From the NCBI GenBank assembly GCA_036001465.1, contig DASYUH010000060.1:1-64000 (forward strand): a DNA stretch of 64,000 nucleotides, given 5' to 3'. The position numbers and the translations under genes are program-made. The DNA comes from Candidatus Polarisedimenticolia bacterium (GTDB taxonomy: Bacteria; Acidobacteriota; Polarisedimenticolia; Gp22-AA2). The number at the start of each line of letters is the position of its first letter. The stretch's first letter is position 1. The notes beneath the pieces were generated by a model, which was given only the letters and a program-made list of their open reading frames with translations, ran no database searches and was not told the DNA's origin. This document shows, piece after piece, positions 22,033 through 40,336 of this stretch.

Positions 22033-22129
22033 CCAGCGGCTGGGGATCCGGCCTCCTCCCTGTCACGCCGGGGCGAGGTTGTGCCTATCCCTCTCGAAGC
22101 CTGTTTCCATGGAGAAGGAGGTGATAGAA

Positions 22130-22252
22130 ATGAGCCGCGTGCTCCACCGCCTGCTGCCGGTCCTCGCCCTGATGGCGATCCCGGCGGCCGCCTGGGCCGC
22201 CGACAGGGCGCTTGCGGCGGCGAGTTGCTGCTGCCCACTTTGCTGCCCCTGA
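22130..22252 (+). CDS. Tiny exported Cys-rich peptide
   Basis: A 40-residue open frame preceded by AAGGAGGTGAT, a full-length match to the 16S anti-Shine-Dalgarno, eight bases before the ATG. A classic signal peptide (MSRVLHRLLPVLALMAIPAA, cleavage likely after AAWA) leaves a mature peptide of about 17 residues ending in CCCPLCCP. Five cysteines in eight residues suggest metal binding or redox cross-linking at the cell surface. The gene is 27 bases upstream of a sigma factor gene on the same strand and is the first gene of a three-gene unit. I know of no named family for it. Confidence 0.72.
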   Translation: MSRVLHRLLPVLALMAIPAAAWAADRALAAASCCCPLCCP

Positions 22253-22279
22253 ATCGGGGCCGGACCGACTGAAGACCGG

Positions 22280-22822
22280 ATGGACCGACCGACAGTCTCC
22301 GATCTGCAACGCCACATGGAACGGCTCGCCGACGGCGACCGCGCCTCGTTCCATCCGGTCTTCGCCGTTCTCTGGCCGTTCCTCCGCCGCTTCGCGGCCC
22401 GGCACCTCGGGCCCGAGGAGGCCGAGGATGCCGCGCAGGAGGCGCTCGTGAAGGTCTTCTTTCGTGCCTCCGAGTTCGACGCATCCCGCAGCGCCCTGGC
22501 GTGGGCCCTCGGCATCACCGCGTTCGAGATCAGGACGGCCCGACGCCGGCGGCAGCGCCGACGGGAGGAGTCCTCGCCGGCAGGAATCCTGGAAGCCGCG
22601 CGCGATGCGGCGCCGACCCCCGAGGCGGAGGCGATGATCAGGGACCTGGAGGCGACGCTCGGGGACGCTCTGGGTGCGCTGCGTCCTGAAGACGCCGAAA
22701 CCCTACGCCTGTACGCGCGCGGCGATCGGCCGGCGCTCGCCGCCGCGACCTTCCGCAAGAGAGTGGAGCGCGCCCTGGCCCGGCTGCGCGCCGTCTGGAG
22801 GACGACCGATGGACGACCCTGA
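22280..22822 (+). CDS. ECF-like RNA polymerase sigma factor
   Basis: A 180-residue sigma-70-family protein with the two-domain ECF layout. Region 2 covers about 20-95 (FLRRFAARHLGPEEAEDAAQEALVKVF, then WALGITAFEIRTARRR). A basic linker follows, and a region-4 domain ends in ATFRKRVERALARLRAVWR. Region 4 is shorter than usual: the stretch that normally forms the first helix of the helix-turn-helix is reduced to YARGDRPALAA. It overlaps the membrane protein gene by 14 bases, an arrangement typical of a sigma/anti-sigma pair. Its target promoters are unknown. Confidence 0.8.
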   Translation: MDRPTVSDLQRHMERLADGDRASFHPVFAVLWPFLRRFAARHLGPEEAEDAAQEALVKVFFRASEFDASRSALAWALGITAFEIRTARRRRQRRREESSPAGILEAARDAAPTPEAEAMIRDLEATLGDALGALRPEDAETLRLYARGDRPALAAATFRKRVERALARLRAVWRTTDGRP

Positions 22823-23345
22823 GACCGGGCTGATGGAGCGCGCCCGCCGCTCCTACGAATGGGGACGCCTCGCCGGCGCCACGCGCCTCAGCGTCCTGCT
22901 GCTGCCGGTGGTCTGGGCGGCCACGCTCTGCTGTCCCAATCCCGGCGGCACGCTCGCAGGCGGGGCCGGTCTCTTCGTGGTCGTCACGACCTGCCTGTGG
23001 CGCGGCCAGGACCTCCGCCGCGGAGTCCGGCCCGGCCTCGTCGCCGGCTTCGTCCCGCTCCTCCTGCCGATCCTCGTGCAGGCGATCGGGCACGTGTGCG
23101 TCCCCGGCCGCTGCCTGCTGTTCCCCGCGGTCTGCGGACTGGGGGGCCTCGCCGGGGGCGTCGCCCTCGGGATCCTGGCTCCGCACCCGCGGGATGGCCG
23201 AGGCATCCCCTTCGTCACCGCCTGCCTGATCGCCGCCCTCGCCGGATCGGTCGGGTGCCTGCTGTACGGACTCTTCGGGCTGGGAGTGATGGCCCTCGGC
23301 CTCGTGGTGGGGGCGGGTCCGGTCCTCGCGGCCCGCCGCGTCTGA
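22809..23345 (+). CDS. Cys-rich membrane protein, possible anti-sigma or sensor
   Basis: A 178-residue protein with a 25-residue charged cytoplasmic start and about six hydrophobic helices. It carries eight cysteines (41, 42, 62, 97, 102, 109, 139, 150), including a C-C-P at 41-43 that echoes the C-C-P ends of the exported peptide two genes upstream. Coupling to the sigma gene (14-base overlap) suggests it binds the sigma factor at the membrane and releases it in response to a metal or redox signal. This role is inferred from context; I recognise no family. Confidence 0.72.
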   Translation: MDDPETGLMERARRSYEWGRLAGATRLSVLLLPVVWAATLCCPNPGGTLAGGAGLFVVVTTCLWRGQDLRRGVRPGLVAGFVPLLLPILVQAIGHVCVPGRCLLFPAVCGLGGLAGGVALGILAPHPRDGRGIPFVTACLIAALAGSVGCLLYGLFGLGVMALGLVVGAGPVLAARRV

Positions 23346-23354
23346 CTTTCCCCC

Positions 23355-23384
23355 GGAACCCGGCCGAATCCTCGGACAGGCTCC
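23355..23384. repeat. Dispersed palindromic element, copy 2 (reverse orientation)
   Basis: Read on the minus strand: GGAGCCTGTCCGAG, then a loop, then TCGGCCGGGTTCC. It fills the gap between two convergent genes; its first base is part of the TAG stop of the hydrolase gene. It may act as a bidirectional transcript end. Confidence 0.7.
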
Positions 23385-25333
23385 TATCGATCCCCCGCGC
23401 GCGGGATGATCGGGAGGATGACGCGGGACGGGTGTGCGGCGTCGTGCAGGACGGTCTGGCGGGCGGCGGTCATGCGGGCGGAGGTCCCGAACGGCTCGCC
23501 GGTGTTCGGATTGCGGTCGAAGGAGGGGAACCGGCTGCTCGTCACGTCGAGGCGGATGCGATGGCCCCTCTTGAAGACGTTGCTCGTGACCATCTGGTCG
23601 ATGACGAACTCCACCGGCTCGTTCGGGGTCAGAAGGGTGGGGGCGGATTCGGACGCCCGGTAGCGGGCGCGGACGACCCCCGCCTCGTTCGGCATGAGGT
23701 TGAAGGCGCGGCCGTCGGGATGCACGTCGTAGAGCATGACGCAGAAATCGGTGTCGACCGCGCTCGAGGCCGCCCACAGGTGCACGGTGATCGGCCCGGT
23801 GACCTCGATGTCCTCGAGGAGCGGCTCGGAGGTGTAGACCAGGACGTCCTGGCGCGACTGGAGCTTCGAGCGGTCGTACGGCCCCATCACCTCGAAGTTG
23901 TCGATGACCACGGGACGGCCCGGATCGTACAGGTAACGGTCCGGCGGCTCGGTCGCCGGGGCGGCGCCGCCGGCTCCCGCTCCGCCGGCCGGTGGGACCA
24001 TGGACAGTCGCCCGTCCCCCGAGGCGGTGTTGGCGCGGCCCCCGCTGCGCAGGTAGTACGGCGTGTACACGGTGCGCGCCAGGGGCCACTCGTTCTCGTC
24101 GCGCCAGCGGTTCTCCCCCATCACGAACAGGCGCACCGGCGGCCCCTCGTCGATGCCGTTCCTGATCCCCTTCAGCCAGCGGTCGTGCCAGCGGATCACG
24201 AGCCCGTAGTAGTCGAGCGTCATGCTGGGCCCGAAATCGAGCTCCCCCACCTTGGTCTCGCTCTCGGAGGGGTCGCCGTGATCCCAGGGGCCCAGGATGA
24301 GGCGCTGGCCGCGGCGCGCCACCTCGGTCGCCCCGTTCCGGCGCATCCCGCTCCAGTTGGCCGTCGCCCCGAGCGGCCCGTAGTTGCTGTCGTACCAGGC
24401 GGAGAAATTGAGCGCCGGAACGGCGATCTTCGAGTGCGCCCTGACGACGTCGGCGAAGGCCCAATAGTCCGAATCGTCGGGATGCGCCAGCCAGTCGTAG
24501 TACCAGGGGGCGACCTCCTTGAGCACCGGGAAGTCGCGGATCGGCAGAAAGTATTCCCACTGCCACTTCAGGCGGTTCCAGCCGGCCGCGGCCTCCTTCT
24601 CGGTCGTCGCGCCAGGCAGGCCCTTCCTGAGCCTCAGGTCGGGGGCGATGTACATCTCGATCCAGCGCATCCAGTCGTGATTGAACGCACCGCCGAAATA
24701 GAAGAAATGCCGGCCGGTCGCGAAGGTCATCGCGGGGAAGATCGAGAGCAGGTGCGGCGGGGCCTCCATCGCCGCCAGCCACTGGACCGCACCCGGATAG
24801 GACAGGCCGAAGGTGCCCACGCGCCCGTTGCTCCATGGCTGCGCCGCGGCCCATTCGATGGTGTCGAACCCGTCCTTCCCTTCCTGGTGGTACGGCCGGA
24901 ACTCGCCGTCCGAGTGGTATCGGCCGCGCACGTCCTGGACCACGACGGCGAAGCCCGAGTGCGCCGCCCGGCCGATCGTCGGCTCCGAGCCCGAGTCGAG
25001 CAGGTCGTCTTTCCCGTAAGGCGTGCGGTAGACTAACGTCGGGTACTTTCCCGGCGTCTCCGGCCGGTAGACGTCGGCGCGCAGCAGGATGCCATCGCGC
25101 ATCGGTACCGGCACGTTCTTCTCGACCGTCAGGTTGGGGAAAAAAGTGTCCGGCGCGGAGCCCCCGTAGGGGACGGCCGGAGACGCCCCGCCGGCAGCCG
25201 GCGCCGCGCCTCCCGTGCCGGCCGGAGGTCGCTCCGCCCGGCACGCCGAGACGAGGATCCCGGCGAGGACCGTCCCCGCGAGGGCGGCGTTGCGCCGCAT
25301 GCGGCTGTCGCGAACGACGCGAAGCTCCGGCAT
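23384..25333 (-). CDS. CocE/NonD family hydrolase, X-Pro dipeptidyl-peptidase S15-like lipoprotein
   Basis: A 649-residue predicted lipoprotein: positively charged start, hydrophobic run and lipobox V-S-A-C with Cys31. The alpha/beta-hydrolase fold opens with VPMRDGILLRADVYRP. The serine nucleophile is Ser178 in G-L-S-Y-P-G, the acid is probably Asp315 in SAWYDSN and the histidine His352 in LGPWDHGD. The C-terminal jelly-roll (about 500-640) with DTDFCVMLYDVHPDGRA is the XPP_C domain. Family members cleave X-Pro dipeptides, cocaine esters or beta-lactam esters; the substrate here is unknown. The ATG at 25333 lies eight bases after a -10 box and may be translated leaderless; ATG 25300 is an alternative. 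Confidence 0.88.
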   Translation of the reverse strand: MPELRVVRDSRMRRNAALAGTVLAGILVSACRAERPPAGTGGAAPAAGGASPAVPYGGSAPDTFFPNLTVEKNVPVPMRDGILLRADVYRPETPGKYPTLVYRTPYGKDDLLDSGSEPTIGRAAHSGFAVVVQDVRGRYHSDGEFRPYHQEGKDGFDTIEWAAAQPWSNGRVGTFGLSYPGAVQWLAAMEAPPHLLSIFPAMTFATGRHFFYFGGAFNHDWMRWIEMYIAPDLRLRKGLPGATTEKEAAAGWNRLKWQWEYFLPIRDFPVLKEVAPWYYDWLAHPDDSDYWAFADVVRAHSKIAVPALNFSAWYDSNYGPLGATANWSGMRRNGATEVARRGQRLILGPWDHGDPSESETKVGELDFGPSMTLDYYGLVIRWHDRWLKGIRNGIDEGPPVRLFVMGENRWRDENEWPLARTVYTPYYLRSGGRANTASGDGRLSMVPPAGGAGAGGAAPATEPPDRYLYDPGRPVVIDNFEVMGPYDRSKLQSRQDVLVYTSEPLLEDIEVTGPITVHLWAASSAVDTDFCVMLYDVHPDGRAFNLMPNEAGVVRARYRASESAPTLLTPNEPVEFVIDQMVTSNVFKRGHRIRLDVTSSRFPSFDRNPNTGEPFGTSARMTAARQTVLHDAAHPSRVILPIIPRAGDR

Positions 25334-40307: not shown

Positions 40308-40336
40308 GGGAGCCTGTCCGAGGATTCGGCCGGGCC
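40308..40336. repeat. Dispersed palindromic element, copy 6
   Basis: GGGAGCCTGTCCGAG, loop, TCGGCCGGGCC; the outer right arm is partly lost. It lies between divergent genes, 11 bases upstream of the DUF1028 gene's -10 box, at the usual -35 area. Confidence 0.65.

Follow-up and report, generated by a model that had tools for sequence, protein, structure and literature searches.

CarQ-CarR of Myxococcus xanthus is an autoregulated ECF sigma factor with a polytopic membrane anti-sigma factor that responds to light and singlet oxygen. As judged from descriptions and not from sequence, our locus shares with it the autoregulated sigma factor and the polytopic membrane protein; we know of no Cys-rich peptide associated with CarQ-CarR. 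In Caulobacter crescentus, the gene for the ECF16 sigma factor SigF is followed by that for NrsF (DUF1109/PF06532), a six-TM anti-sigma factor in which two Cys, C131 and C181, are functionally important; sigma-F is released under chromium stress, and the system answers soft metals (Cr, Cd) and has a regulon that is small and carries a distinct promoter motif (PMC3511200). Clusters encoding the bufferin Buf1 can also hold sigma and NrsF genes (PMC12452194). In the ECF16 system BcrS-AbcS of Brucella melitensis, a sigma factor and a six-TM DUF1109 anti-sigma factor with two conserved Cys drive the adjacent gene for a Met-rich peptide, in the bcrXQP operon, in the response to oxidants (PMC8315932). 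The combination of an ECF sigma factor, a polytopic anti-sigma factor with Cys, and a sulfur-rich peptide as target is a known kind of system. Exported ORFs with a Cys motif can also come first in an operon: CutF in Rhodobacter capsulatus and CruR in Bordetella pertussis head operons of metal-related genes (PMC9973294, PMC9426467), and in CruR 45 residues separate the metal motif from the arrest motif (PMC9426467).

The locus described here lies in a 64,000-nt stretch of DNA from an Acidobacteriota genome (the window). As the initial annotation had proposed, three genes follow one another on one strand, the first with a strong ribosome site; a predicted promoter ahead of them is new to the present analysis:

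22062..22088, + strand: predicted ECF-type promoter, GTCAC-N16-GCCTAT, with invariant GTCAC and GCC-AT and fixed spacing in 12 aligned loci
22115..22125, + strand: Shine-Dalgarno site AAGGAGGTGAT of the peptide gene, the strongest of 49 starts tested
22130..22252, + strand: gene for an exported Cys-rich peptide of 40 aa, upstream of the sigma gene in 13 of 15 loci, dN/dS about 0.3-0.4
22280..22822, + strand: gene for an ECF sigma factor of 180 aa with region 4 one helix short (Pfam Sigma70_r2, PDB profile matches, AF2 and Foldseek)
22809..23345, + strand: gene for a predicted six-helix membrane protein of 178 aa with eight Cys, a probable anti-sigma factor, adjoining the sigma gene in homologous loci, with C42, C97, C102, C109 and C150 conserved

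The locus resembles SigF-NrsF in that an ECF sigma factor is followed by a membrane protein with six predicted TM helices and conserved Cys, and BcrS-AbcS in that both are joined by a sulfur-rich peptide. The membrane protein, however, is unrelated to NrsF by profile comparison, and the promoter reads GTCAC-N16-GCCTAT as opposed to GTAACC-N16-CGAA for SigF. Unlike in the SigF-NrsF and Buf1 systems, the sigma operon itself begins with the gene for an ultrashort peptide, no modification enzymes are linked to it, and sigma region 4 is shortened. Whereas the Brucella peptide is Met-rich and encoded in a different operon, together with a methionine sulfoxide reductase system, the peptide here is Cys-rich, and the membrane protein is not a DUF1109 protein.

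The sigma and membrane protein genes overlap, by 14 nt, and the membrane protein has exactly eight Cys; the initial annotation had noted the overlap and the eight Cys. Directly after the membrane gene, at 23358-23389, lies a short interspersed repeat, CCCGGCCGAATaCTCGGACAGGCTCCTA, which occurs again in the window at 40309-40334 (- strand) and some 15 times elsewhere in the genome (L002, L003, L005, L006, L008); in L003 it forms a head-to-head pair, like REP elements.

Given that the membrane protein has no significant match in Pfam, NCBIfam or PDB sequences, we used it as the handle in the search for homologous loci. Homologues were found in 12 of 396 sampled Acidobacteriota genomes, with two further from the class of G343 and one more in a MAG labelled Pseudomonadota (L059). 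In the contig search, a single-sequence query found no locus and an alignment query gave four; a tblastn search of plasmids with the membrane protein gave no match. The order peptide-sigma-membrane protein recurs in 13 of the 15 loci (12 of the 14 from Acidobacteriota, plus L059). The peptide orthologues in these 13 loci are 37-43 aa long, with a hydrophobic signal peptide and then 4-7 clustered Cys; the gap between the peptide and sigma genes varies from 7 to 153 nt. The C-terminal parts of the peptides in other genomes are:

G003: ...STACCCCPFCCP
G001: ...AASHCCCPICCP
G005: ...AACCCCPLCCP
G009: ...SCCPCSGCPFCCWM
G011: ...AACCCCPLCCG
G343: ...RDCPPDCPICPHCPGC
G397: ...ESCPSGCPCCPCPGC
G101: ...SCCCSCPACPCEGQ
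G385: ...PSCCGGGCPFC
G384: ...ACCPGCGCC
G408: ...CCAACAACAGCGCC
L059 (Pseudomonadota-labelled MAG): ...SCCPGPCCESGCPMCP

In G024 and G018, the sigma factor and membrane protein are kept and the peptide is absent; the first genes there encode an exported RCC-like (GCCP) protein and a Thioredoxin_7 protein. Loci without the peptide, on which the initial annotation let its proposal hinge, are confined to these two, and in both a larger exported Cys protein comes first. The membrane homologue was not found in six relatives from the same order (G002, G004, G006, G007, G008 and G010; completeness 63-100%); given these six, some of them incomplete genomes, the distribution of the unit is patchy.

The full 40-codon peptide is MSRVLHRLLPVLALMAIPAAAWAADRALAAASCCCPLCCP, a signal peptide followed by a C-terminal ...AASCCCPLCCP; its mature portion is probably ADRALAAASCCCPLCCP, roughly 17 residues. 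Pairing of AAGGAGGTGAT with the anti-Shine-Dalgarno sequence (-13.0 kcal/mol) is the most stable among the 49 window starts tested, in keeping with the earlier description of this site as the best in the window; on the same scale the sigma gene ranks 38 (-3.2 kcal/mol) and the membrane gene 10 (-9.3 kcal/mol). The peptide's site is stronger than that of the sigma gene in 12 of 13 peptide-bearing loci, in most of them by far, and equal to it in L036, as expected if an effector exceeds its regulator in amount.

We asked how often such an ORF arises by chance among 227 called genes from the window and 14 homologous regions. Thirteen genes have an upstream ORF of 30-60 aa with at least four Cys near its end; 11 of them are these sigma genes, every one with an ORF that has a hydrophobic N-terminus, which the remaining two ORFs lack. 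The predicted mature peptide is far richer in Cys than the proteome (binomial P 1e-5 to 2e-9), and the residues between the Cys are variable. Most order-level pairs have a pairwise pN/pS of 0.39-0.54; the L011-L012 pair and the comparisons that involve the divergent L013 give 0.69-1.10. Between the closest orthologues, dN/dS after correction is about 0.3-0.4. By these substitution ratios, the peptide is under purifying selection, signal sequence included. A search of the 396 Acidobacteriota genomes for the CCCPxCC DNA pattern returned five exported ORFs, all inside this operon; its six further matches lie in unrelated places and are not signal-peptide ORFs.

The protein encoded at 22280-22822 matches Pfam Sigma70_r2 (E 4.5e-10), scores 47.4 bits against NCBIfam sigma70-ECF (cutoff 42.9) and has profile matches in the PDB to SigW, SigK and other ECF sigma factors; by its region 2 homology it belongs to the ECF sigma factors. 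The shortened region 4 noted in the initial annotation is also found here: no region-4 model in Pfam matches even at E<=1, and the AF2 model (mean pLDDT 84) is one helix short, with C-terminal helices at 114-133, 136-147 and 155-177 and a loop at 148-154 between the last two region-4 helices. Canonical sigma-4 has the first helix of its helix-turn-helix at the place matching this loop, and from the model we take this to be the missing helix. The shortening is common to the sigma family of these loci. The recognition-helix end of the protein aligns with solved ECF sigma factors and the -35 element is conserved, yet Pfam matches no region 4.

The model of the membrane protein has six helices at low confidence (pLDDT 61); as expected at this confidence, a fold search with it gave no significant match. 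Hydropathy and positive charges in a 13-sequence alignment are consistent with both termini being inside. Five Cys are conserved (C42 in 11 of 13 sequences, C97 in 11, C102 in 9, C109 in 12 and C150 in 12), and all five are predicted at or near the periplasmic face. The gene adjoins this sigma gene in every homologous locus, and the protein is probably an anti-sigma factor, an assignment that draws on gene order and topology given that there is no profile similarity to NrsF. Homology to NrsF was rejected (hhalign probability 0.4% against nine Acidobacteriota NrsF proteins); PF06532 (NrsF/DUF1109) has no Pfam match in any of eight members of the membrane protein family, and a PF06532 search of the window's own genome likewise gave none. 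What the two share is a plan, a likeness and not homology: six predicted helices, two Cys (C109 and C150) present in 12 of 13 sequences, and a gene that follows an ECF sigma gene. At a profile probability of 0.4%, the protein is at most an analogue of NrsF.

The loci share an upstream motif, GTCACgc-N14-GCCTAT, with the peptide start 18-64 nt further on; L059 reads GCCCAT, and in L036 the motif is present in imperfect form only (GCCTAG). The motif also lies ahead of the first gene in G024, which has no peptide, and a second copy in G384 lies ahead of a downstream gene for an RCC protein. Searching 12 genomes for GTCAC-N16-GCCTAT returned mostly the operon itself and 0-3 other matches (reversed control, 0-2); in G018 and G385 the exact pattern occurs in other places only. 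The promoter is probably read by the operon's own sigma factor. Given that it occurs almost only ahead of the operon, we infer a self-activating unit that is its own main target and has almost no other. These searches did not support a wide regulon; extra matches in L020, L027 and L028 looked incidental. Separately, G003 has an exported Cys-rich ORF, ...SPFCCVRGGPSCRAGLPSFCHKGN..., downstream of its membrane gene (L039; L010 reverse strand 2100-2500); in L039 it lies roughly 2.1-2.3 kb ahead of the left end of the membrane gene's 3' side. It might be a further target.

The genes around some of these loci may bear on what the unit responds to. No metal gene adjoins the window's own operon. The G384 locus adjoins ACR3-, ArsC- and ArsD-like genes (ArsD by Pfam; ACR3 and ArsC by eye). 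Relatives of the RCC protein are found on plasmids of other phyla, in Peribacillus beside merA/merR and an arsenic resistance gene and in Adhaeribacter beside ACR3, arsN2 and an arsenite methyltransferase; a Rhodococcus match falls inside a MerR-type regulator. The G024/G018 protein was grouped with the RCC protein of G384 and G408 by eye, on common motif spacing. By association, the neighbourhood of the RCC proteins and the G384 locus point to soft metal(loid)s.

Small exported C...RCC/GCC proteins of this type, with no Pfam family, were seen at L048 (8228-8602), L103 (after the membrane gene), L043 (6782-7198) and L044 (7241-7690). Their plasmid relatives, L106, L107 and L108, lie in mercury and arsenic gene clusters, and those of G384 and G024 stand behind the operon's promoter motif.

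We favor, with a probability of roughly 0.55, a thiol-sensing, self-activating sigma/anti-sigma stress unit that chiefly makes an exported thiol peptide, which would buffer soft metals or oxidants. This reading builds on the operon and its conservation, the dedicated promoter, the strong Shine-Dalgarno site, selection on the peptide, the conserved Cys and the predicted topology, all read from sequence. At rest, the six-helix membrane protein would use its short N-terminus, on the cytoplasmic side, to hold the ECF sigma factor. A periplasmic soft metal(loid) or thiol oxidant, the putative inducer, would react with Cys on the outer face of the membrane protein and thereby release the sigma factor, which would read hardly any promoter but its own. 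The product translated first and best would be the exported peptide of roughly 17 residues with 4-7 thiols; by binding metal or scavenging oxidant, it may close the loop. A thiol peptide in the periplasm might itself get oxidized, and a feedback role for it is possible.

The initial annotation had the signal run the other way, with the peptide binding a metal or oxidant outside the membrane and the membrane protein passing this on to the sigma factor. Its metal or oxidant theme gained support from the five conserved Cys predicted at the periplasmic face and the ars/mer context of a second target gene; the direction, in which the peptide senses and the membrane protein relays, did not. In such a scheme the loaded or unloaded peptide would act on the membrane protein, and the sigma factor would be released or re-bound. 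The peptide and the switch are constantly paired in one operon, the Cys of the membrane protein are predicted on the side that would face the peptide, and, promoter targets being few, most genomes offer no obvious partner other than the peptide. Yet the sigma factor and membrane protein exist without it in G024 and G018, the Cys spacing diverges more in the peptide than do the conserved Cys of the membrane protein, and little peptide would be present before induction, its gene being under the promoter of the switch itself. Given this promoter and the strongest ribosome site of the operon, the outside-sensing peptide is not favored and we regard it as unlikely; the peptide looks like the main product of the switch and not its sensor.

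We think it quite unlikely that the short ORF serves as a regulatory leader, whether a poly-Cys attenuator responsive to charged tRNA-Cys or a nascent exported metal sensor that stalls to control sigma. The sigma gene does have a weak start and is closely preceded by a short Cys-rich ORF with a strong one, and mycobacteria have poly-Cys leader ORFs. Exported leaders with a Cys motif also exist, namely CutF and CruR (PMC9973294, PMC9426467). Both are longer, however, and their metal motif stands at a distance from the Pro-rich arrest motif at the C-terminus, whereas here the Cys are C-terminal, all within the last 10-20 residues, and the C-terminal ends differ among peptides with no common arrest motif. 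Given the length of the ribosome tunnel, Cys so near the C-terminus would still be inside it at termination. The lack of a common stall motif, the variable gap to the sigma gene (7 to 153 nt) and Cys that would not leave the ribosome before termination make leader models less likely; in addition, no common hairpin was found between peptide and sigma genes, and selection covers the whole peptide, including its signal sequence.

That the peptide is a bufferin-like RiPP precursor, its Cys modified to a copper ligand (e.g. by an MNIO in trans), is very improbable: although a Cys precursor with a signal peptide sits in a sigma/six-TM operon, much as Buf1 clusters with sigma and NrsF (PMC12452194), and an MNIO occurs in 7 of 12 genomes searched, the window's own included, none was found in the peptide-bearing G005, G009 (listed as 100% complete), G011 and G385, none lies near any locus, no modification enzyme adjoins the three-gene unit, the window genome's MNIO adjoins a Cys-rich gene of its own, and the peptide has no match to DUF2282 or another Pfam family. 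Modification by a linked MNIO was rejected by co-occurrence. The window genome's MNIO gene (PF05114; L050, contig C72, about 500-2600 of the locus) has a Cys-rich ORF (...KCAGANSCKGHGECG...) before it and a 294 aa gene after it, and this looks like a separate bufferin-type locus.

The proposed self-activating stress unit with an exported thiol peptide differs from described systems in a few respects. In the open-access literature we found no description of a gene for a small Cys-rich peptide heading an ECF sigma operon; the locus stands apart by its apparently unrelated membrane protein, its unusual sigma region 4 and an ultrashort peptide as first product. A bolder claim, which we consider doubtful, is that this is an undescribed class of sigma system, in which a sigma factor with a partial helix-turn-helix is paired with a six-helix Cys membrane protein that has no relation to known anti-sigma factors, and an exported thiol peptide of about 17 residues serves both as effector and as the cue by which the membrane sensor is reset. 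On that reading, the bacteria would have a genetically encoded thiol buffer in the periplasm that is governed by its own state, free-thiol or metal-loaded.

The locus adds a family of conserved exported Cys peptides of fewer than 45 residues, recognizable by their constant operon order and distinct promoter, and the promoter motif is a handle for finding further members. It also suggests that the logic of a polytopic Cys anti-sigma factor, a sigma factor and a sulfur-rich exported peptide, as in SigF/bufferin and BcrS/BcrX, has more than one origin, with unrelated membrane proteins. The recurring gene order suggests that soil Acidobacteria have a hitherto undescribed defence against toxic metals or oxidants, centred on a peptide so short that most gene finders would miss it.
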